A stretch of DNA of 48,168 nucleotides from Umezawaea endophytica (lineage in GTDB: Bacteria > Actinomycetota > Actinomycetes > Mycobacteriales > Pseudonocardiaceae): positions 363,399 to 411,566 of the forward strand of contig NZ_JANYMP010000002.1 in NCBI RefSeq assembly GCF_025061645.1, read 5' to 3'. The notes under the pieces are model-generated. The model was not told the origin of the DNA and searched no databases. It was given only the letters and a program-made list of their open reading frames with translations. The stretch's first letter is position 1, and each line of letters begins with the position of its first letter. Of the stretch, positions 27,931-37,953 are shown piece after piece. A program made the position numbers and the translations under genes.

Positions 27931-27983
27931 GGTGGAGGGGGCCACGGGCGGCTCTCCGGTTCGTCCACCCGGAAGGATGCCGT

Positions 27984-27989
27984 TACCCT
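27984..27989 (+). promoter_or_regulatory. Candidate -10 element of the radical SAM gene (leaderless)
   Basis: TACCCT (TANNNT) ends 8 bp before the GTG at 27998, with no ribosome binding site. The placement favours a transcript beginning at the start codon and supports choosing this GTG. Confidence 0.45.
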
Positions 27990-27997
27990 GGTTCTCC

Positions 27998-29968
27998 GTG
28001 ACGGTCGAGTCGGTCTTCCCCATGTTGGAACCCCTGCTGCCCAGGGTCTCGAAGCCCGTGCAGTACGTCGGGGGCGAGCTGAACGCGACCGTCAAGGACT
28101 GGGACGCCGCGGCCGTCCGCTGGGCGCTCATGTACCCGGACGCGTACGAGGTCGGGGTGCCGAACCAGGGCGTCATGATCCTGTACGAGATCCTCAACGA
28201 GCTGCCGGACGTGCTCGCCGAGCGCACCTACGCGGTGTGGCCGGACCTCGAAGCCCTGATGCGCGAGCACGGCGTCCCGCAGTTCACCGTCGACGGGCAC
28301 CGCCCGCTCGCCGCGTTCGACCTGATGGGCATCAGCTTCGCCACGGAGCTGGGTTACACGAACATGCTCACCGCGCTCGACCTCGGCGGCATCCCGCTGC
28401 ACTCGGTGGACCGCACCGACGAGCACCCGATCGTCGTCTCGGGCGGGCACGCGGCGTTCAACCCGGAGCCCATCGCGGACTTCATCGACTGCGCGGTGCT
28501 CGGCGACGGCGAGGAAGCCGTCCTGGAGATCACGGACATCGTTCGCGCGTGGAAGGCCGAGGGCTGTCCCGGAGGCCGCGACGAGGTGCTGACCAGGCTC
28601 GCGGAGACCGGCGGCGTGTACGTGCCGCGCTTCTACGACGTCGAGTACCTCCCCGACGGCCGCATCCAGCGCGTGGTGCCGAACCGCGAGCGCGTGCCGT
28701 ACCGGGTGTTCAAGCGGACCACGATGGACCTCGACGCGTGGCCGTACCCGAAGCAGCCCCTCGTGCCGCTCGCCGAGAGCGTCCACGAGCGGATGAGCGT
28801 CGAGATCTTCCGCGGCTGCACCCGCGGCTGCCGGTTCTGCCAGGCGGGCATGATCACCCGCCCGGTGCGCGAGCGCTCCATCGAGGGCATCGGCGCGATG
28901 GTCCAGCGCGGACTGGAGGCGACCGGGTTCGAGGAGGTCGGCCTGCTGTCGCTGTCCAGCGCGGACCACTCGGAGATCGCCGAGATCACCAAGGGCCTCG
29001 CGGACCGCTACGAGGGCACCAACACGGGCCTGTCGCTGCCGAGCACCCGCGTGGACGCGTTCAACGTCGACCTGGCGAACGAGCTGTCGCGCGGCGGCCG
29101 TCGGTCCGGCCTCACGTTCGCGCCGGAGGGCGGCAGCGAGCGGCTGCGCCGGGTGATCAACAAGATGGTGTCCGAGGAGGACCTCATCCGGACGGTCAGC
29201 ACGGCGTTCGCGAACGGCTGGCGGCAGGTGAAGCTGTACTTCATGTGCGGCCTGCCGACCGAGACGGACGAGGACGTGCTCCAGATCGCCGAGATGGCGA
29301 AGAACGTGATCCGCGCGGGCCGCGAGGTCAGCGGCCGCAAGGACATCCGCTGCACCATCTCCATCGGCGGATTCGTGCCCAAGCCGCACACGCCGTTCCA
29401 GTGGGCGTCGCAGTGCGACCCGGACACCGTGGACAGCAGGCTGGCCAAGCTCCGGGCCGCGATCAACTCCGACCGCAGCCTGGGCCGCAACATCGGCATG
29501 CGCTACCACGACGGCAAGCCGTCGCTGATCGAAGGACTGCTGTCGCGCGGCGACCGCCGCATCGGCAAGGTCATCGAGCGCGTGTGGCGCGAGGGCGGCC
29601 GGTTCGACGGCTGGTCCGAGCACTTCTCCTACTACCGCTGGGTCAACGCGGCCGAGGCGGAACTGCCCGCGTTCGGCGTCGACCTCGCCTGGTTCACCAC
29701 GCGTGAGCGCGAGGAGCTGGAAGTCCTGCCCTGGGAGCACCTGGACTCGGGCCTGGACAAGGAGTGGCTCTGGGCGGACTGGCAGGACGCGCTGGACGAG
29801 CGGGAGCAGGACGACTGCCGCTGGACCCCGTGCTTCGACTGCGGCGTCTGCCCGGCGATGGGCACCGACATCGAGGTCGGGCCGACCGGTCGCACCCTGT
29901 TGCCGTTGACGCCCGTCGGCGGCGGTTCCCCGGTCCGCAACCCGTCCCTCAGCACGCTGACCAATTAG
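27998..29968 (+). CDS. B12-binding-domain radical SAM protein (TIGR03960 family)
   Basis: A 656-residue protein. The N-terminal ~200 residues form a degenerate cobalamin-binding-like Rossmann domain (ALMYPDAYEVGVPNQGVMIL, LMGISFATELGYTNMLTALD, VSGGHAAFNPEPIADFID). The radical SAM core has RGCTRGCRFCQAG (Cx3Cx2C cluster site), LSLPSTRVDAF and FAPEGGSERLRRVINK. The C-terminus has further cysteines (TPCFDCGVCPAMG) that may bind metal. The start at 27998 gives MTVESVFP, as in homologues; a longer reading begins at 27932. Family members usually sit beside a DUF2344 protein; here that partner is at 37096. The reaction is unknown; tRNA or ribosome-related roles are suggested by neighbourhood only. 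Confidence 0.88.
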   Translation: MTVESVFPMLEPLLPRVSKPVQYVGGELNATVKDWDAAAVRWALMYPDAYEVGVPNQGVMILYEILNELPDVLAERTYAVWPDLEALMREHGVPQFTVDGHRPLAAFDLMGISFATELGYTNMLTALDLGGIPLHSVDRTDEHPIVVSGGHAAFNPEPIADFIDCAVLGDGEEAVLEITDIVRAWKAEGCPGGRDEVLTRLAETGGVYVPRFYDVEYLPDGRIQRVVPNRERVPYRVFKRTTMDLDAWPYPKQPLVPLAESVHERMSVEIFRGCTRGCRFCQAGMITRPVRERSIEGIGAMVQRGLEATGFEEVGLLSLSSADHSEIAEITKGLADRYEGTNTGLSLPSTRVDAFNVDLANELSRGGRRSGLTFAPEGGSERLRRVINKMVSEEDLIRTVSTAFANGWRQVKLYFMCGLPTETDEDVLQIAEMAKNVIRAGREVSGRKDIRCTISIGGFVPKPHTPFQWASQCDPDTVDSRLAKLRAAINSDRSLGRNIGMRYHDGKPSLIEGLLSRGDRRIGKVIERVWREGGRFDGWSEHFSYYRWVNAAEAELPAFGVDLAWFTTREREELEVLPWEHLDSGLDKEWLWADWQDALDEREQDDCRWTPCFDCGVCPAMGTDIEVGPTGRTLLPLTPVGGGSPVRNPSLSTLTN

Positions 29969-29971
29969 GAC

Positions 29972-29989
29972 ACCGGGAGCGTTCCCGGT
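29972..29989 (+). terminator. Short hairpin after the radical SAM gene
   Basis: ACCGGGA and TCCCGGT form a 7-bp stem with a 4-nt loop, 4 bp past the stop, followed by TTCC. The stretch 29990-30113 up to the convergent ferredoxin-fusion gene holds nothing else I can identify. Confidence 0.5.
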
Positions 29990-30113
29990 TTCCTGATGGC
30001 GACGCGGTTCGCGAGAGCCGCCGAAGAAAACCCGTTGTCGCCTGCGGAACTCGGGGCCACTGTGGACGAACGCAAAAGAACTACTGAAAGAACGCAATTC
30101 CCGCGAACTCGGG

Positions 30114-31007
30114 TCACTCGACGACGCGGTTCATCTTGATGGCGCGCATCGGGCACGCGTGCGCCGCGGCCTCGACCAGTGGTGTCTGGGAGGCCTCGGG
30201 GTTCTTCGCGTACCGCAGCCGACCGTCCTCCAGTAGCCGGAACACCTTCGGCGCCTGGGACGCGCAGATCCCGTAGTGGTGGCACCGCTGGTGGTCCACG
30301 CTGACGGCGATCTTGTCCTTCACCTCGGTGCGCACGGTCGCGGACTGGGGGTTCCGCGGGTCCACGACGGGCGTGGGCTCCTCGGGCGCGGGGGAGTTGT
30401 CCACGACCACGTGGGGTGTGTCCACCAGGCCGATGCGCGCGAGGTGCTCGGGGGGCAGGAACCGCAGGATCGTCAACGTGATCGCGGGCGCGAGCAGCGT
30501 GATGCCGCCCAGCCACAGCGTGGACACCGATCCGTTGGCCGCCGCGCCCAGCCAGGAGTGCATCGCGACGAGCCACACGCCCACGTAGGAGAAGCGGTGG
30601 AAGTTGACCCACTGCGAGGTCTCCAGGACGCGGTGCAGCCCCGCGGTGATCGCCACGGCGATCATGAGTTCCAGGCCGACGATCCCCAGCGCGTGCCTGG
30701 CCAGGCCGCCGTCGACGAACGGCAGGACCACCTGGAGGAAACCGAGGCCGCCCGAGTCGAGCAGCAGGAACGCCAGTCCGTGCGTCAGGCCGGTCGCGAG
30801 CGTGAAGGTCGCCAGCACGATGTGCCCGCCGCGCAGGGCCTGTCTGCCCGTCAACCGGTGGACCCAGCCGGTGGCCGTCAGCACGCCCCAGCACAGCGTC
30901 AGGCACATCGCGACGTAGGCCATGCGCGCCGACAGCGCGGAGACCGCGCGGACGCCCGCGTCGTATGAGGTGGCCGCTACAACCGTTTGCACGATGTGAG
31001 CGTTCAT
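30114..31007 (-). CDS. Ferric-reductase-like transmembrane protein fused to a [3Fe-4S]-type ferredoxin
   Basis: A 297-residue fusion. Residues about 25-185 form a six-helix ferric-reductase-like domain. H62 and H76 lie in one helix (GHIVLATFTLATGLTHGLAF), and H137 and H150 lie in another (NFHRFSYVGVWLVAMHSWLG). This is the paired-histidine pattern that binds two b hemes across the membrane. After a Pro-rich linker (about 205-222) comes a ferredoxin domain. C242-x5-C248 (RCHHYGICASQAPKVF) and C285 followed by Pro (HACPMRAI) give the three-cysteine pattern of [3Fe-4S] ferredoxins, with Tyr245 at the position of the missing fourth cysteine. No FAD/NAD reductase domain is present. The ATG at 31007 has GGGGA upstream. 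It is divergent from an ECF sigma gene. The likely role is electron transfer between a cytosolic donor and the membrane or outside; direction and partner are unknown. Confidence 0.82.
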   Translation of the reverse strand: MNAHIVQTVVAATSYDAGVRAVSALSARMAYVAMCLTLCWGVLTATGWVHRLTGRQALRGGHIVLATFTLATGLTHGLAFLLLDSGGLGFLQVVLPFVDGGLARHALGIVGLELMIAVAITAGLHRVLETSQWVNFHRFSYVGVWLVAMHSWLGAAANGSVSTLWLGGITLLAPAITLTILRFLPPEHLARIGLVDTPHVVVDNSPAPEEPTPVVDPRNPQSATVRTEVKDKIAVSVDHQRCHHYGICASQAPKVFRLLEDGRLRYAKNPEASQTPLVEAAAHACPMRAIKMNRVVE

Positions 31008-31115
31008 AACATTTCCCCCGACAAGGTCTAGATCGTTTTAGTGTGCGGCCCGATAAGTACTACGAACCGCCGTCGGAGTGGTTCGATCAAGTAGTCTATC
31101 CTGCCCGTGATCTGC

Positions 31116-31131
31116 ATCACAGTACTCTTGC
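31116..31131. promoter_or_regulatory. CRP/FNR-type binding site between the ferredoxin fusion and the ECF sigma gene
   Basis: CGTGATCTGCATCACA matches the CRP-family consensus TGTGA-N6-TCACA at 9 of the 10 defined positions and has perfect GTGAT/ATCAC arms. It lies 109 bp upstream of the fusion-gene ATG and 173 bp upstream of the sigma-factor GTG. The whole 296-bp gap (31008-31303) is far more AT-rich than its surroundings and contains repeated GAACT elements (31144, 31164) that resemble ECF -35 elements. No gene is seen in it. Confidence 0.6.
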
Positions 31132-31303
31132 GTAACTCCCTTCGAACTATGGCGTCAGCTTGCGGAACTCTGTCGATGTCTTTCCGAAAGATACTGTACC
31201 GAAGTTTTTATCAGAGATTTGGATTGCCATCTAGCGTGCCGTACGATCCTGTTGTATCAATTAGATCGCAGGCGCACTTCCGGTCGCCGATAAGGAGGTC
31301 GGG

Positions 31304-31906
31304 GTGCCCCATCCGCCGCTGGGACTCCGGGAGGTTGGTTTCTCCATGAATGCGCTGGGCGGAGCCTTGGCGGATCCTCGCAAGCAGGTCGAGAACGGCA
31401 CCTCCAAGCGTCAGGCCGAGGAGCTGGTCACCGAGCTCTACGGACAGTTCAGAGGAGCGTTGTTCGCACACGTCCTCGGCCTCACGGGTCATGATCGTCA
31501 ATGGACCGAGGACGTCGTGCAGGAGACGTTGATCAGGGCGTGGCAGAACTCCGAGAACCTCGTCCGCGATCCTCGCATGTTGCGCGGATGGCTACTGACA
31601 GTGGCCCGCCGGATCGTGATCGACGGGTGGCGCACGCGTCAGGCCAGGCCGCAGGAGGTGGAGTTGACCTCGCCGGACAGCATGGAAGCGCCGGATGAAA
31701 CGGATCAGGCCCTCTCACTCATGGTAATCACGCAGGTGATCGGCAGGCTGGGCGAGGAACACCGGGCGGCGATCTACGAAACGTACGTCCGCGGCCGGAC
31801 GATCAAAGAGGCGGCCCTCGTGCTCGGGATTCCCGAGGGCACGGTGAAGTCGAGGCTGTACAAGGCCATGCAGATTCTTCGAGGCGCACTGCGCGAGCGA
31901 AGCTGA
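31304..31906 (+). CDS. ECF-type RNA polymerase sigma factor
   Basis: A 200-residue sigma-70 family factor. Region 2 reads LYGQFRGALFAHVLGLTGHD, then WTEDVVQETLIRAWQ and GWLLTVARRIVIDGWR. Region 4 reads LGEEHRAAIYETYVRGRTIK and EAALVLGIPEGTVKSRLYKA, the promoter -35 recognition helix. The two regions are joined by a short acidic linker (DSMEAPDETD), with no region 1.1 or 3, as in ECF factors of the SigK/SigL kind. The GTG at 31304 has AAGGAGG at 31292-31298 with 5 bp spacing. It is followed after 21 bp by a zinc-binding anti-sigma gene, so it is presumably held inactive at the membrane. Its regulon likely includes its own promoter and perhaps the divergent ferredoxin fusion; that is inference. 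Confidence 0.92.
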   Translation: MPHPPLGLREVGFSMNALGGALADPRKQVENGTSKRQAEELVTELYGQFRGALFAHVLGLTGHDRQWTEDVVQETLIRAWQNSENLVRDPRMLRGWLLTVARRIVIDGWRTRQARPQEVELTSPDSMEAPDETDQALSLMVITQVIGRLGEEHRAAIYETYVRGRTIKEAALVLGIPEGTVKSRLYKAMQILRGALRERS

Positions 31907-31927
31907 CACCGCAGAGGGGCGAGGCCG

Positions 31928-32296
31928 ATGTCGTCACATTCCGACGTCGCCGCGTACGTGCTCGGCGTCCTCGATGAGGGCGCCGAGCTCGCATTTAATG
32001 ACCATCTGGTGCTCTGCGTTCGCTGTCAGCGGGAACTCGACGAATTCCGGACGATTCCGCAGGTGCTCACGCAGGCCGAGCAATTCGGGCTATTGGCACG
32101 TCGAATTCCCACTTCGCCCCATTCGGACAAGCGGCGGTTCGAGGACTGCGGTGCACCGGTTCGGGGACTGCTGTTCATCGCGGCCGGTGTGCTGCTCGTG
32201 GCCGTGGTGGCGGCGCTGGTCATCTCCCTGCCCGTCGGCCACGGGGCGCTCCAGGCCGACGACCACCTCTCGTCGGTGTTGCGATCGTGGGGCTGA
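31928..32296 (+). CDS. Zinc-binding membrane anti-sigma factor
   Basis: A 122-residue protein. The N-terminal anti-sigma domain has H4 and the zinc motif HLVLCVRC (H-x3-C-x2-C) in FNDHLVLCVRCQRELDEF. One transmembrane helix follows (LLFIAAGVLLVAVVAALVIS), then a very short outer tail of about 20 residues. The H-x3-C-x2-C zinc site marks it as a ZAS protein, some of which release sigma when thiols oxidise. The tiny outer part leaves little room for an external sensor, so the signal may come from the membrane or cytosol. It lies directly behind its cognate sigma gene. Confidence 0.88.
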   Translation: MSSHSDVAAYVLGVLDEGAELAFNDHLVLCVRCQRELDEFRTIPQVLTQAEQFGLLARRIPTSPHSDKRRFEDCGAPVRGLLFIAAGVLLVAVVAALVISLPVGHGALQADDHLSSVLRSWG

Positions 32297-32385
32297 CCCA
32301 CCGTCCGATCGCGCCGTACCGCCGATCGGCCTACGACTTCCTGGGGTCAAGTCTCGCTCAACGGGACGGCCACGTCTCTACGGTG

Positions 32386-32437
32386 GGTACCGAAGGAAAT
32401 CCGGGTCCGACCCGGAGCGGGCTCTCGGTACCGAAGG
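32386..32437 (+). repeat. Direct repeat GGTACCGAAGG flanking a small hairpin
   Basis: GGTACCGAAGG occurs at 32386-32396 and 32427-32437. Between them CCGGGT-CCG-ACCCGG (32401-32415) forms a 6-bp stem. The repeats lie 101-152 bp upstream of the LuxR-family gene in an otherwise featureless 241-bp gap, and may be regulator sites. Confidence 0.45.
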
Positions 32438-32537
32438 CCGAGCGGAACGCCCGGTCTGGACACATGCCATACGGTGGTGCTCCCCGCTCCCACGGCCTCG
32501 CGTGCACCGTGCCAGGCGCCGCAGATCGGAGCCACGA

Positions 32538-35348
32538 GTGACATCCCCAGTGCCCGCGTGGGTGGTCCACAGACCCGTGCTCGTGCCCGCGGCGCAGACG
32601 GCCTGCCTCGGTCGCGAGGCCGAGCTGCGGACCATGCGGTCCATGCTGGCGAAGGTGGCCGTCGGCCGGTCGGCGATCGTCACGATGACCGGTGAGCTCG
32701 GCGTCGGGAAGTCCGTGCTGTTCGACGCCACCGCGGAACTCGCCAGGAGCATGGGTTTCGCCGTCGCCGTCGGCCACGGGGCCCGGCTGGAGACGCACCT
32801 CGACGGCGGGGTCATCCGCCAGCTCGCCGACGACCTGGACGGCGCGGACGTCGACCTGCGCCCCGACCGCGTCTCGTCGCTGGAGTCGTTCTACCGGCTC
32901 GTCCGCCAGGCCGCGGAGAAGCGGCCGCTCCTCATCATCGTGGACGACATCCACGTCACCGACATCTGGTCGATGCGGTCCATGGCCTACATCCGCCGCC
33001 GGACCACCGACCAGCCCGTCCTCATCATGCTCGGCTCCACCACCGGCCACCCGCCCGCGGGCGAGGTGTCGCTCCAGGAGCTGACCGGGTGCAGCGCCGA
33101 GACCGTCGTCCTCGAAGGACTCGACCTCCGCGGCGTCACCGAACTGCTCAAGGCCAACATCGCCGCCCCGGTCCACGCCGACCTCGCCGCCGCGTGCTTC
33201 GACGTCACCAAGGGCAACCCGTACCTGCTGCACTCCATGCTCGGCGCGCTGCGGGCCCGGTTCGGCGGCGAGATCGGCGCGGTCACCCCCACCGAGGTCC
33301 ACGAGCTGGCGGGCACCGACATCGGCGAGCAGCTCCGGGTCCGCCTGCGTCCGCTGCCGGGCTGCGCCGAGATCGTGCGCGCCGTGGCGGTCCTGGGCGA
33401 CGAGGCCACCGTGGACATGGTCGCCGCGATGTCCGGAGTGGACCACACCCAGGCGCTGCGCGGCATGGACGCGTTGGTGCGCCTGCGAATCCTCCGCAAC
33501 AGCCATACGGTGTCCTTTCGACACCCGTTCGTCCGCAACGCCGTCCTGCACGACCTCCCGGTCGCGACCCGCGCCGCCGACCACGCCCGCGCGGCCCGGC
33601 TCCTCGCCGACGCCGACGCGCCGGACGTGCAGATCGCCGCGCACCTCCTCCAGGCGCGCGGCATCCACGTCGCCTGGGGCCTGGACGTGCTCCGCCGCGC
33701 CGCCCGCGCCGCCGCCCACAACGGCGATCTCGACCTGGCGGTGGCGCTCCTCGAACGCGCGCTCGACGAACCGCTCACCCCCGACGACCGCTTGGCCGTG
33801 CAGCTCGAACTGGTCCACGTCGAGTTCCTCGGTGACTCGGCCAAGGGCATGGCCCGGTTGCGCGAAGCGCTGGCGCACGCCGACGACGTCCGCTCCGCGG
33901 TCGGCCAGGCCGTGACGATGCTGCTGCGGGCGTGCACGGCCCACGAGGCCCGGCTGGCCCTCTCGATCGGCCTCCAGGTGCAGTCCCGGCTCAGCTCCCA
34001 GGAGAAGGACGAGCACTGGGAGCTGCGAGCGATCTGCTACCTCGCCGCGGCGGGCAACGACCTCGGTCTGGCACTGCGCGCCAGCCTGTTCACCGAGGAG
34101 CTCGAAGCGGAGGTGCCGGACGACCCGAGGCTCCGCCAGCTCCACTCGGTGATCATGTCGCTCGGCCACGCGCTGCGCGGCGACTCCGCACTCGAAGCCG
34201 TCCGGTACGCCGACGAGGCGCTCGCGGGCGACCGCATGGACGTGTTCGTCCAGCCGTTCGTGTTCACCCTCTCGACGTGCTTCCTGGTCGACGCGCCCGA
34301 GCTGTCGGACAAGTTCCGCCGGATGATCGGCAGCACGTCCGAGCCCCACGACTTCCACCTGCGCAAGGGCACCGTCGTGTCGCTGGCGCACGGCATGGAC
34401 TTCCTCGCGGCGGGTGAGTTGATCAGGGCGAAGACGCTGCTCAAGTGGCAGATGCGCCTCTTCGACGAACTGGGCGCCGTCCAGGACTGCCCGATGGCCA
34501 TCCTCTGCGCCGCCCGCCTCACCGAGGTGCTGGTCGACCTCGGCCGCGTCGACGAGGCCCGCGACCTGCTCGTCCGCAGTGGGTTCGCGGGGGAGCTGCC
34601 TGAGCTGTTCCAGCACAACCTGGTGCTCTACTCGCGCGGCAAGCTCAAGCTGGCCACCGGGGACGACGACGGAGCGCTCGCCGACCTGCTGGAGTGCGGG
34701 CGTCGGCTGGAGGCCTCGGCCGTCGACAGCCCCGCGGTCATCCCGTGGCGCGCGCTGGCCGTTCGCGCGTACCTGGCGCTGGGGCAGCGGGAGTCCGCCG
34801 CGACGCTGGCCAAGGAGGACCACGAGATGGCCCGGCAGTGGGGGTCGCCGAGGTCGTTGGGCACCGCGCTGCTGTCCATCGGCCTGAGCGCCGACGACGA
34901 GGAAGCGGCCACCAGGGCGCTGCTGAAGGCGACCGAGTACCTGGCGGAGTCCACCGGCAGGCTCCAGCTCGCCGAGGCGTTCTTCGAGCTGGGGGCCCAG
35001 CTCCGCAGGCGGGGCCAGCCGGAGCGGGCCATCCCGTACCTGCGCCGGGCCGTGGAGCTGAGCGCCAAGTGCGAGTCCCAGCCCCTCATCCGCCTGGCGG
35101 GCGACGAACTGCGCGCCTGCGAGCCCGTCACCGCCGAGGGCACGGTCCACGGCCTCACCAAGCAGGAGACCCGCGTGGCGGGCATGGCGGCCCAGGGGCT
35201 GACCAACCGCCAGATCGCCGAGGCCCTCTTCCTGACCCGCCGGACCGTGGAGCTGCACCTGTCCGGCGCCTACCGCAAGCTCGGCATCACCGGCCGCACG
35301 GACCTCGCCGAAGCCCTCAGCCAGCACCGCGCCCCCCAGTCGGGCTAG
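32538..35348 (+). CDS. LAL-type LuxR family transcriptional regulator with AAA ATPase domain
   Basis: A 936-residue regulator. The N-terminal ATPase starts LGREAELRTMRSML, with Walker A GELGVGKSV near residue 53 and Walker B LLIIVDDIH near 131. A long helical TPR-like middle follows (about 350-860). The C-terminal LuxR helix-turn-helix is at about 871-930 (LTKQETRVAGMAAQGLTNRQ, IAEALFLTRRTVELHLSGAY, RKLGITGRTDLAEAL). The GTG at 32538 (VTSPVPAW) is chosen over longer readings because upstream sequence is non-coding in character and CGGAG lies about 8 bp before it. Such proteins activate secondary-metabolism, maltose or morphological genes in actinomycetes. No target is evident; the sigma/anti-sigma pair is upstream but 241 bp away. 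Confidence 0.9.
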   Translation: MTSPVPAWVVHRPVLVPAAQTACLGREAELRTMRSMLAKVAVGRSAIVTMTGELGVGKSVLFDATAELARSMGFAVAVGHGARLETHLDGGVIRQLADDLDGADVDLRPDRVSSLESFYRLVRQAAEKRPLLIIVDDIHVTDIWSMRSMAYIRRRTTDQPVLIMLGSTTGHPPAGEVSLQELTGCSAETVVLEGLDLRGVTELLKANIAAPVHADLAAACFDVTKGNPYLLHSMLGALRARFGGEIGAVTPTEVHELAGTDIGEQLRVRLRPLPGCAEIVRAVAVLGDEATVDMVAAMSGVDHTQALRGMDALVRLRILRNSHTVSFRHPFVRNAVLHDLPVATRAADHARAARLLADADAPDVQIAAHLLQARGIHVAWGLDVLRRAARAAAHNGDLDLAVALLERALDEPLTPDDRLAVQLELVHVEFLGDSAKGMARLREALAHADDVRSAVGQAVTMLLRACTAHEARLALSIGLQVQSRLSSQEKDEHWELRAICYLAAAGNDLGLALRASLFTEELEAEVPDDPRLRQLHSVIMSLGHALRGDSALEAVRYADEALAGDRMDVFVQPFVFTLSTCFLVDAPELSDKFRRMIGSTSEPHDFHLRKGTVVSLAHGMDFLAAGELIRAKTLLKWQMRLFDELGAVQDCPMAILCAARLTEVLVDLGRVDEARDLLVRSGFAGELPELFQHNLVLYSRGKLKLATGDDDGALADLLECGRRLEASAVDSPAVIPWRALAVRAYLALGQRESAATLAKEDHEMARQWGSPRSLGTALLSIGLSADDEEAATRALLKATEYLAESTGRLQLAEAFFELGAQLRRRGQPERAIPYLRRAVELSAKCESQPLIRLAGDELRACEPVTAEGTVHGLTKQETRVAGMAAQGLTNRQIAEALFLTRRTVELHLSGAYRKLGITGRTDLAEALSQHRAPQSG

Positions 35349-35429
35349 GCGCCGCTGCTCACGAGGTGGGAGCGCTCTCGCCACTCGGCAGGGCAAAACT
35401 GTCGGACCCCACCCGTACCGTGTGCGTCG

Positions 35430-35456
35430 GGGGGTCCTCCACGACGGGCGACCCCC
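35430..35456. terminator. Hairpin between convergent LuxR and subtilase genes
   Basis: GGGGGTC (35430-35436) pairs with GACCCCC (35450-35456) around a 13-nt loop in the 117-bp gap between the two convergent stops. It has no T-run. Confidence 0.5.
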
Positions 35457-35465
35457 GCTCCGCGC

Positions 35466-36944
35466 TCACCTGGTGACGGCGGCGAGCGCGTCGACCAGCC
35501 CGTGGCCGTAGAAGCCGTTGTACTCGGAGTACCCCATGCAGTACGCGTCCTGCGCCCCGGTGCCGTTCAGGTCGTAGTCGGCCGGGCAGGGCAGGGTCTC
35601 CGACTGGTCGTTCAGCATCCGGCTCAACTGCGGTGCCGTGGCCTCCGGGTGCACCGACGCCAGCAGCGCCGCGACACCGGACACGTGCGGCGTCGCCATC
35701 GACGTCCCGCACGAGTAGTCGTACCCCGCCGGCACGGTCGACAGCACGCAGCCGTCCACGGCGTCATCCGGCACCTGCTTGCGGTCGCCGCCCGGCGCCG
35801 TCAGGTCCACCGCGCCGAGACCGTACGAGCTGTACCCGGTCTTCACCTTGTCCGCGCCGACGGACGACACCGCCACGACCGACCGCAACTGCGCGGGCAG
35901 CACCAGGCAGGTGTTGTCCAACGCGCGGGGCCGCAGCTCCTCCGCGTTGGTCGGGCTCTGCGAGTCGCGGCCGGGCTTGCTCAGGTCGGTCGCGCTGTTG
36001 CCCGCCGCGGCCACGGTCAGCACACCGCTGTCGGACGAGTAGTCGACCGCCCGGCGCACCGCCTCGTACACGACCCGCTGCCCGACCTGGTTCTGGCAGG
36101 TGAACACCCACGGGTCGATGAAGTAGCTGTTGTTCGTGATCGTCATGCCGTGCACGGCGGCCCACATGAACCCGCACACCGCGTACTCGGGGTAGATGTA
36201 CCCGTCGTCGTCCACGACCTTCACCGACGCGATCCGCACGCCCGGCGCCACACCGGTCGTGCCGCGCCCGTCGTCCGCCGCGGCGATCGTCCCGGCCACG
36301 TGCGTGCCGTGCGCCGAGGTCGTCGGCGACCACGCGGCGACCGAGCTGTCGGCCCTGCCGCTGGTCGCGCAGCCCGCCGACAGGCCGGGGTCCAGCGCTC
36401 CGACGAGGTCCGGGTGGCTCGGGTCGATGCCGGAATCCAGCACGCCGACGACCACGTCGCGGCTGCCGTTGTTGATCGCGTGGGCCTCGGCGGCCCTGAT
36501 CAGGTCCATGTCCCACTGCTCGACGGTCCGGTCGACGGCCCCGCCGCGCGACGCCTTGCCCATCCCGGTCTCGTCGACCTTCTTCCGCGTCACGGCGCCG
36601 TTCAGCTTGGAGATCGCCTCGGCCTGGGCGCTGTACGCGCGGTCCGCGCCCATCCGCCGCCCGAACGTCGGGTCGGGGGAGGTCGCGACGGCGACGGAGA
36701 TCTGCGGGTAGTACACGGTCGACGTGCCGCACGCGGCCGCGATCTGGGCCTCCGCGATCGGCTGGCTCGTGCCCTGGTCGAAGACGACGAGGTAGCGCAG
36801 CGTCGGGCCCGGTTGCACGCAGCTCGCGATCGGCGCCGTGAACGGGTCGGGTTGCGCGGCCGCGGTGGCGGACGCCACCGTGCTCCCGCTCGCGAGCAGC
36901 ACAACGCTGACCGCGACCGCTCGGGCGCGGCGGAGCAGAGGCAC
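35466..36944 (-). CDS. Secreted S8 family serine peptidase (subtilase)
   Basis: A 492-residue exported protease. The GTG at 36944 has GGAGG 7-8 bp upstream and opens a signal peptide (VPLLRRARAVAVSVVLLASG, cleavage near residue 30). A propeptide-like region follows (about 48-120, LRYLVVFDQGTSQPIAEAQI). The catalytic triad is D170 (GVLDSGIDPSHPDL), H212 (SAHGTHVAGTIAA) and S415 (CGTSMATPHVSGVAALL). Four or more cysteines in the mature part suggest disulfides. It should degrade extracellular proteins after self-processing. No inhibitor or cell-wall anchor is seen. It is convergent with the LuxR gene and divergent from the DUF2344 gene. Confidence 0.92.
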   Translation of the reverse strand: MPLLRRARAVAVSVVLLASGSTVASATAAAQPDPFTAPIASCVQPGPTLRYLVVFDQGTSQPIAEAQIAAACGTSTVYYPQISVAVATSPDPTFGRRMGADRAYSAQAEAISKLNGAVTRKKVDETGMGKASRGGAVDRTVEQWDMDLIRAAEAHAINNGSRDVVVGVLDSGIDPSHPDLVGALDPGLSAGCATSGRADSSVAAWSPTTSAHGTHVAGTIAAADDGRGTTGVAPGVRIASVKVVDDDGYIYPEYAVCGFMWAAVHGMTITNNSYFIDPWVFTCQNQVGQRVVYEAVRRAVDYSSDSGVLTVAAAGNSATDLSKPGRDSQSPTNAEELRPRALDNTCLVLPAQLRSVVAVSSVGADKVKTGYSSYGLGAVDLTAPGGDRKQVPDDAVDGCVLSTVPAGYDYSCGTSMATPHVSGVAALLASVHPEATAPQLSRMLNDQSETLPCPADYDLNGTGAQDAYCMGYSEYNGFYGHGLVDALAAVTR

Positions 36945-37095
36945 GGGGGACCTCCATCGCTGGGCGGACGGTGTTCGACGGCGCCGGGTGACCGTTGTAG
37001 GCGGACGGTAACGACGTGCGGCGAACCAGACAACCTCAACGGGTGGAACCCCTCCACGGTACCGTCCCCCTGGAGTAGCAGCCTGGGCCGTTGGG

Positions 37096-37953
37096 GTGCT
37101 GGTCACACCGACAGCCCGGCCGGAGGAGCCCGCCCGTGAGGAGCACACGCTGAGTCGCCAGAACCAGCCCAACAACCCGTCCGCCGCGGCGGTGCAGAAG
37201 CTCCGCCTGTGCTATGCGAAGCGTGGCAGGTTGCGCTTCACCTCGCACCGCGACGTGGCGCGCAGCTTCGAGCGCGCGCTGCGCCGGGCAGGCGTGCCGA
37301 TGGCGTACTCGCAGGGCTTCAGCCCCCGGCCGAAGGTGTCCTGGATCGGCGCGTCGCCGACCGGGGTGGCCAGCGAGGCCGAGTACGTCGAGGTCCAGGT
37401 CGTGGAGCTGCTGGACGTCGAGAGGCTGCGGGTCGCGCTGGACGAGGCGCTGCCGCCGGGCCTGGACGTGCTGGAGATCGTCGTCTCGTCCGGCGGGAAC
37501 CTCACCGAGCGCATCGAGGCGAGCGAGTGGCGGGTCGAACTGGACGGCGTGTCGCCCGCGGAACTGCGGACTGCCGTAGCCGCGCTGCTCGCCGCCGAAT
37601 CGGTCGAGGTGGAGCGCGCGACCAAGGACGGGAAGAGGATCATCGACGTCCGTCCGGCCGTGGTGTCGGCGCTGGTGGAGGACCAATCGAGCGACGCAGG
37701 CCACGATGGGCCTGATTTGTCACGACCGTGTGGGATACTCGTGACGGTCGTACGGCAGACAACACCTACCGTTCGACCCGATGACGTGCTGAGCGCGCTC
37801 CGCGTCGTCGCCGACCTGGTTCCGCCGGTGCCCGCGAAGGCGACCCGGATGGCACAGGGACGGCTCGACGACGATGGTGCACTGGTAGACCCGTTAGCCC
37901 AGGACAGGGTGGCGGAGTCCAAGCCGGTGACCGGGGAGCAGGGGCGCCGCTAA
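37096..37953 (+). CDS. DUF2344 / TIGR03936 family protein (radical SAM partner)
   Basis: A 285-residue protein if started at GTG 37096. The core is KLRLCYAKRGRLRFTSHRDV, ARSFERALRRAGVPMAYSQG and FSPRPKVSWIGASPTGVASE, the signature of TIGR03936 proteins that sit beside or fuse to TIGR03960 radical SAM proteins. The C-terminal part includes RPCGILVTVVRQTTPTVRPD and an acidic/polar tail. A start at CTG 37150 (giving LSRQNQP) would have GAGGAG exactly 6 bp upstream and would remove 18 residues that look unrelated to the family; the GTG at 37096 has no such site. I list the longer reading but think the CTG start plausible. The exact biochemical role is unknown. Confidence 0.8.
   Translation: MLVTPTARPEEPAREEHTLSRQNQPNNPSAAAVQKLRLCYAKRGRLRFTSHRDVARSFERALRRAGVPMAYSQGFSPRPKVSWIGASPTGVASEAEYVEVQVVELLDVERLRVALDEALPPGLDVLEIVVSSGGNLTERIEASEWRVELDGVSPAELRTAVAALLAAESVEVERATKDGKRIIDVRPAVVSALVEDQSSDAGHDGPDLSRPCGILVTVVRQTTPTVRPDDVLSALRVVADLVPPVPAKATRMAQGRLDDDGALVDPLAQDRVAESKPVTGEQGRR

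Follow-up and report, generated by a model that had tools for sequence, protein, structure and literature searches.

A ferric reductase domain-ferredoxin fusion divergent from a SigL-like sigma factor in Umezawaea endophytica: a probable membrane subunit of a sigma-controlled electron-export system

We analysed a 48,168-nt stretch of the 11.0-Mb genome of Umezawaea endophytica (GCF_025061645.1, NZ_JANYMP010000002.1:363,399-411,566, forward strand; hereafter the window, numbered from its first nucleotide). The window encodes a 297-residue fusion of a membrane ferric reductase domain (FRD) with a ferredoxin, divergent from genes for an extracytoplasmic function (ECF) sigma factor and a zinc-associated anti-sigma (ZAS) factor. 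From conservation of sequence and neighbourhood, the fusion is probably the membrane subunit of a sigma-controlled electron-export system. The fusion gene is most likely a target of the divergent sigma factor, an assignment well supported by a promoter element that accompanies the sigma gene. A broader proposal, for and against which we consider the case evenly balanced, is that the system represents an undescribed class of exporter: a P450-type reductase/ferredoxin chain feeding a two-heme conduit and dedicated extracytoplasmic proteins, with its own SigL-like sigma factor per operon and CRP/FNR co-activation in two of three operon types.

Conservation of the fusion with a divergent sigma factor

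Relatives of the fusion were collected at one genome per species using two peptide patterns. We kept the best 80 of the 160 relatives confirmed and added the window and a second fusion copy in the window's own genome (L004), giving a set of 82 loci. Genes were called by script and, beyond a few Pfam-typed families, assigned with hidden Markov models (HMMs) built from our own clusters. A sigma factor of one HMM family (SigL-like) lies divergent from and upstream of the fusion operon in 68 of the 82 loci, while the fusion has no divergent linked sigma gene in the remaining 14. The co-occurrence of fusion and sigma in relatives, which an earlier, sequence-only reading of this DNA had set beforehand as its test, is therefore conserved across the Pseudonocardiaceae, and the possibility of an oddity of one genome was rejected since the neighbourhood recurs.

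The closest named relative in the one-genome-per-species scan is Umezawaea tangerina (fusion protein approximately 96% identical), and the relatives in two same-genus genomes are 95 and 97% identical. In the pairwise comparison with U. tangerina the fusion showed 96.9% identity and a ratio of nonsynonymous to synonymous substitution (dN/dS) of ~0.05, against 0.10 for the sigma gene. The whole genome contains 78 sigma-70 region-2 matches. Judged by this identity at so low a dN/dS and by sigma linkage in 68/82 loci, the arrangement is well beyond chance.

The sigma-linked loci fall into three types. Type A (nine loci, Umezawaea and Saccharothrix) has the fusion alone with the sigma gene and a gene for a LuxR-type regulator, with an anti-sigma gene in two of the nine. 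In type B (22 loci, mostly Amycolatopsis) a LuxR-anti-sigma-sigma set faces DUF4142-fusion-ferredoxin reductase (FdR), and in type C (37 loci) anti-sigma-sigma faces PF03640-DUF4142-fusion-FdR. Type A forms a single clade in both trees, with support of 0.994 for the fusion and 0.966 for the sigma factor. After midpoint rooting, the smallest clade to contain every type B locus also contains type A (fusion 0.733, with six sigma-less loci included; sigma 0.994). This nesting in both trees indicates that type A, to which the window belongs, is probably a reduced descendant of a fuller operon type.

Twenty further loci were chosen from more divergent matches; one (L135) repeats L061 and was dropped, leaving 19. 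A divergent sigma gene was present in 14 of these. In 18 of the 19, the FRD and ferredoxin parts are neighbouring genes in different frames; thus, the fusion joins two proteins that are encoded side by side elsewhere. On a wider scale, 112 of 150 family genomes gave a match at E 0.001, many over the ferredoxin part only. In a class-wide draw, with few candidates scored in each genome, matches at E 1e-25 came from 4 of the other 295 genomes: in three the match covered only the FRD half, in the fourth both halves, with an internal stop.

Downstream of six sigma-less fusion operons (L055, L063, L070, L077, L097 and L104) comes a conserved group of genes, some small and some larger (clusters C21, C44, C40 and C41), that presumably resembles the conservons of Streptomyces.

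A predicted ECF promoter element that tracks the sigma factor

The sigma gene encodes 186 residues on the plus strand, with its best start at ATG 31346 and its end at 31906. Regions 2 and 4 both score above the Pfam cut-offs for an ECF sigma factor, and the closest solved structure is Mycobacterium tuberculosis SigL (E 2.2e-29). Against NF007227, which we take to be the model for SigL, the window protein scores 179.9 bits, below the cut-off of 202, and its C16 paralogue 204.7.

Alignment of the divergent regions of the nine type A loci revealed a conserved GAACC...CGTAGT element preceded by TGTGA-N6-TCAC. In the window, conservation across loci places a predicted ECF promoter of the fusion, GAACC-N15-CGTA, at 31061-31084 (minus strand). 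A looser motif, GAAC-N15-18-CGT[AC], derived in part from type A, was found on the operon strand in 68/68 sigma-linked regions, where first-order resampling predicts 4.5; on the opposite strand it occurred in 17. A strict form, GAACC-N14-17-CGTA, was fixed after these 68 regions had been viewed; it is tested by the 14 loci without sigma linkage, by the 660 other genes and by the later loci. The strict motif lies upstream of the operon in all 68 divergent-sigma loci, in none of the 14 other fusion loci and upstream of only 2 of 660 other called genes in those loci. Among the further loci it occurs in the standard region of 12 of the 14 with a linked sigma gene, at 415 nt before the first gene in L137 (wider scan), and in 0/5 without one. 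On the sigma strand it was found in 10/68 loci.

The -35 element of SigL is likewise of GAACC type. According to PMC6372665, the SigL -10 element is T-G-N-C/A-A-G, with CG preferred before it, and residue D60 reads the G. Here, CGTA takes the place of CG-T-G: with any base permitted after CGT, the base was A in 68/68 regions and G, C or T in none. The residue equivalent to D60 is arginine in 67 of the 68 sigma factors of linked loci. In these alignments, the departure from SigL at the -10 element is matched by a corresponding one at the specificity residue; sigma factor and predicted target make up a compact pair.

In the host genome, the extended consensus CGAACC-N15-17-CGTAGT occurs at five sites, against 1 for a reversed-pattern control. 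These are the fusion promoter, two sites antisense within tRNA-Arg genes (the three same-genus genomes searched all share one of the two in identical form), a fourth within a called gene and a fifth that is intergenic. A wide sigma regulon was rejected, since the exact consensus has only these five sites, most of them antisense to tRNA genes or intragenic.

The CRP-like inverted repeat, TGTGA-N6-TCAC, spans 31107-31121 in the window (no strand assigned) and begins 37 nt upstream of the GAACC element. TGTGA-N6-TCACA is the CRP/FNR consensus, and from this match we infer that a CRP/FNR-family protein binds the site. With at most one mismatch, the consensus starts 37-38 nt upstream of GAACC in 9/9 type A and 22/22 type B loci; in type C it was found in 2/37, at 41 and 44 nt, the rate in shuffled sequence being 0.18%. 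This fixed register with the ECF promoter suggests that an activator acts there.

Five Actinophytocola loci (L049, L051, L053, L054 and L082) carry a GAACG variant of the promoter, four of them with a CRP-like site 36-37 nt upstream. With L104, they are the six of the 14 loci without a divergent sigma gene in which the looser motif occurs. In L082 the sigma gene lies on the same strand as the fusion, and L069 is cut by a contig end.

Architecture of the fusion protein

The fusion is encoded by an uninterrupted open reading frame (ORF) of 297 codons at 30114-31007 (minus strand). In an alignment of 46 sequences, the window protein included, H62, H76, H137, H150, C242, C248, C285 and P286 are invariant and Y245 nearly so; all seven histidines and cysteines singled out by the sequence-only reading are among them.

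The membrane half (approximately residues 22-190; 30438-30944, minus strand) is assigned to the FRD superfamily through its family rather than through the window protein alone. PF01794 was matched at E <=0.001 by 29 of the 46 aligned members (best 8.9e-10), and the four heme histidines, expected on two helices, are invariant in 46/46. PMC3591440 describes each heme of an FRD as held between two helices. By analogy, the ligand pairs of the fusion would be H62 with H137 for the inner heme and H76 with H150 for the outer. The earlier pairing of H62 with H76 and H137 with H150 had the right residues but grouped the two ligands on each helix. Domain-model searches found no flavin adenine dinucleotide (FAD) or nicotinamide adenine dinucleotide (NAD) domain in the fusion, as had been noted from the sequence, and the long NOX/FRE form was rejected for this reason. 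The earlier idea of a transmembrane electron conduit without flavin domains of its own gains support from these features.

The C-terminal domain (residues 235-292; 30132-30305, minus strand) is a three-cysteine ferredoxin in which C242-x5-C248-x36-C285-P is found; residues 237-291 match Fer4_13 (E 2.1e-7) and residues 235-292 match Fer4_15. Ferredoxins of the [3Fe-4S] type that serve cytochromes P450 (P450) have the motif C-x5-C-xn-CP with a residue other than cysteine at the third position, and the fusion has the same motif. In a Foldseek search with an AlphaFold model, the ferredoxin half aligned with 1siz, 8amp, 4ov1 and 4id8 ([3Fe-4S] and other single-cluster ferredoxins) at E 0.007-0.037.

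Reductase, extracytoplasmic partners and a proposed electron route

An FdR relative lies downstream of the fusion on the same strand in 71 of the 82 loci, and two members of this family were Pfam-typed as PF07992 (Pyr_redox_2) with PF14759 (Reductase_C). A DUF4142 relative is nearby in 70/82. The window copy is a reduced form with no adjacent reductase, DUF4142 or PF03640 gene. An FdR relative is nevertheless encoded in trans in 9/9 type A genomes (E <1e-100); in the window genome it resides on C16, inside the full operon that carries the second fusion copy.

From these data we infer the cofactors, topology, direction of electron flow and acceptor, together with the action of the sigma factor and the CRP-type protein. 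Electrons from NAD(P)H would enter the FAD-containing FdR, pass to the cytoplasmic [3Fe-4S]-type ferredoxin domain and cross the membrane by way of an inner b heme bound at H62/H137 and an outer one at H76/H150, finally reaching an acceptor on the extracytoplasmic side. Where the operon is full, a PF03640, DUF4142 or DUF1996 protein probably fills this last role. Having lost its reductase and partners, the window copy would have to borrow the FdR of the second operon. The divergent SigL-like sigma factor would activate the fusion gene from GAACC-N15-CGTA, with a CRP/FNR-type activator probably bound just upstream. If correct, this gives a concrete and testable electron route across the actinobacterial membrane built from parts known from P450 systems, hints at a function for two families annotated without one, PF03640 and DUF4142, and offers an example of a CRP-like site in fixed register with an ECF promoter.

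DUF1996 proteins are encoded between DUF4142 and the fusion in two loci (L095:5461-7818 and L101:6472-7776, by Pfam, the second L095 copy by eye), and DUF1996-like sequences were seen by eye in L137 and L138.

Several observations weigh against a sigma-controlled export system. The window fusion itself gave no PF01794 match even at E 1. The AlphaFold model is of moderate quality (pLDDT 74.9, pTM 0.58), and none of its Foldseek matches fell below E 0.001, those to FRD folds having E 0.31-2.1. PF03640 relatives are near none of the nine type A loci and 10 of the 22 type B loci, and no acceptor gene was recognised at the window locus. The loci are related by descent, so that the locus counts are not independent, and the mirror-tree correlation between fusion and sigma (r = 0.94) is without a species-tree control. 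Regarding the promoter, the sigma-linked locus L138 has no motif, L082 has no strict motif and the search for autoregulation was negative, the window sigma gene having no such promoter of its own. Finally, the intergenic consensus copy on C37 (L153:1912-1939, G000:C37) stands ~200 nt before a 172-residue ORF; the fusion, while a clear target of the sigma factor, is perhaps not its sole one.

Alternative readings of the locus

A variant of export in which no protein acceptor takes part and the outer heme itself passes electrons to oxygen, giving superoxide, or to ferric or cupric ions, must be viewed as a tentative alternative. All four canonical histidines are retained, and their spacing (H62/H76 14 apart, H137/H150 13 apart) is that of NOX2. 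In the Foldseek search the membrane half aligned, weakly, with SpNOX (probability 0.97, E 0.31), STEAP2 (0.97, 0.52), STEAP1 (0.96, 0.55) and the NOX5 membrane domain (0.84, 2.1). The lack of a recognised secreted partner at the window locus would also be accommodated. However, a simple oxidase has no obvious need of the DUF4142 relative that accompanies 70/82 fusions.

An unlikely alternative is redox signalling, whereby the fusion acts as a sensor and relays either electrons or a signal of oxidation to the ZAS anti-sigma factor, which then frees the sigma factor. The anti-sigma gene (31928-32296, plus strand) encodes a short membrane protein with the motif H26-x3-C30-x2-C33. It matches PF13490 at E 0.015, below the cut-off, and scores 32.3 of 100 bits against NF052375. 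Its best solved match is 3hug_B (E 0.009, weak), which we take to be RslA; the partner chain in that structure is a sigma fragment matching SigL. By eye, approximately 20 residues extend beyond a single long hydrophobic stretch. The sequence-only reading was accurate both in placing this pair divergent from the fusion and in describing an anti-sigma factor with almost no external domain. The zinc motif and the tight linkage of fusion and sigma genes are what sensing would predict, and PMC13002591 terms SigL-RslA sensitive to redox balance. Conversely, PMC7406223 holds that the zinc motif of membrane-bound anti-sigma factors may be structural and doubts its sensory role. In the U. tangerina comparison the anti-sigma gene is the fastest-changing of five (74% identity, dN/dS 0.35), and 14/82 fusions have no divergent linked sigma gene. 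Furthermore, seven Saccharothrix type A loci (L036-L038, L040, L041, L043 and L094) have sigma and LuxR genes with no anti-sigma-like frame in between. In the six of these seven genomes that were searched, the closest match to the window's anti-sigma factor is 37-40% identical and lies <5 kb from the reductase of a full operon. By this pattern of absence, the anti-sigma gene is dispensable in the type A branch, which weakens the sensor reading. The fusion had been proposed as either the sensor input or the main target of the sigma factor; it is the second role that the promoter counts (68/68, 0/14 and 2/660) uphold.

That electrons instead stay in the cytoplasm and pass to, for example, a P450, or flow inward, with the membrane half serving mainly as an anchor, is improbable. 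When solved structures are searched by sequence, the ferredoxin half does match best the C-terminal portion of a CYP51 chain of 551 residues (6mcw), ahead of single-cluster ferredoxins; against this reading stand four heme histidines invariant in 46/46 sequences and the PF03640, DUF4142 and DUF1996 partners. Least probable is that the linkage of the sigma gene is incidental, its product controlling other genes: in type A the LuxR and subtilase genes keep their place just as constantly and a second intergenic consensus match exists on C37, yet the motif tracks sigma linkage and both site and specificity residue differ from SigL in a matching way.

Comparison with known systems

The export system proposed here has its closest parallels in MsrQ/YedZ and the actinobacterial MsrQ-like proteins (PMC8238504 and PMC3591440). 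These are likewise short FRD proteins, in MsrQ/YedZ without a flavin domain, through which a partner outside the cytoplasm receives electrons from within. They differ in having no fused ferredoxin domain. In YedZ, moreover, the first heme histidine is replaced by arginine (PMC3591440), whereas H62 is invariant in the fusion family; MsrQ identity was rejected because all four histidines are kept. The described MsrQ-like clusters have PF00175 or NuoF-like donors and typically ApbE and FMN-binding partners, in place of the FdR, ferredoxin, PF03640 and DUF4142 found here. PMC3591440 describes short bacterial FRD proteins, the full set of four histidines being retained in few of them, and mentions an extension of Fer2 type; neither Fer4 nor 4Fe-4S appears as a word in its text.

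SpNOX, NOX5 and STEAP share the FRD fold (by weak match) and transmembrane electron transfer, with four heme histidines as in the NADPH oxidases. In contrast to NADPH oxidases and ferric reductases, the fusion has no FAD/NAD domain and its donor would be the ferredoxin domain. Single-cluster [3Fe-4S]/P450-type ferredoxins (8amp, 4id8, 4ov1, 1siz and the CYP51 chain 6mcw) resemble the ferredoxin domain, and the FdR belongs to the P450/dioxygenase reductase family, but such ferredoxins serve or are fused to a P450 rather than a membrane heme domain. SigL-RslA provides the best solved relatives of the sigma factor and, weakly, of the anti-sigma factor, and shares the GAACC-type -35 element; the target gene differs, and here a LuxR gene lies behind the pair. 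The sequence-only reading had not recognised the arrangement as described, and no description of this fusion-sigma arrangement was found among the top-ranked papers from searches of the open-licence PMC literature.

Neighbouring genes

Features beyond those in the sequence-only reading comprise the FdR and secreted partners, the second genomic copy, the CRP-like site, a 936-residue LuxR regulator and the genes flanking the locus. The region 29968-37096 is a block inserted between a TIGR03960-family gene (27977-29968; dN/dS 0.11 against U. tangerina) and a TIGR03936-family gene (37096-37953), in the same position as in the other type A loci. Genes of these two families, we assume, usually adjoin one another.

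The regulator encoded 3' of the anti-sigma gene is of AAA/LuxR (LAL) type (32538-35348, plus strand, with a start at 32538 or 32550; dN/dS 0.17). A LuxR gene lies within 6 kb in 9/9 type A and 22/22 type B loci. In type A loci it is adjoined by a subtilase gene (35466-37175 in the window; Peptidase_S8, mycosin-like below the cut-off). Upstream of the LuxR gene, at 32374-32437, the nine type A loci share a conserved block that surrounds TCTACGGTGGGTACCGAAGGAAAT and has a second element, TCGGTACC; from its position and conservation this block is perhaps an operator of the LuxR protein.

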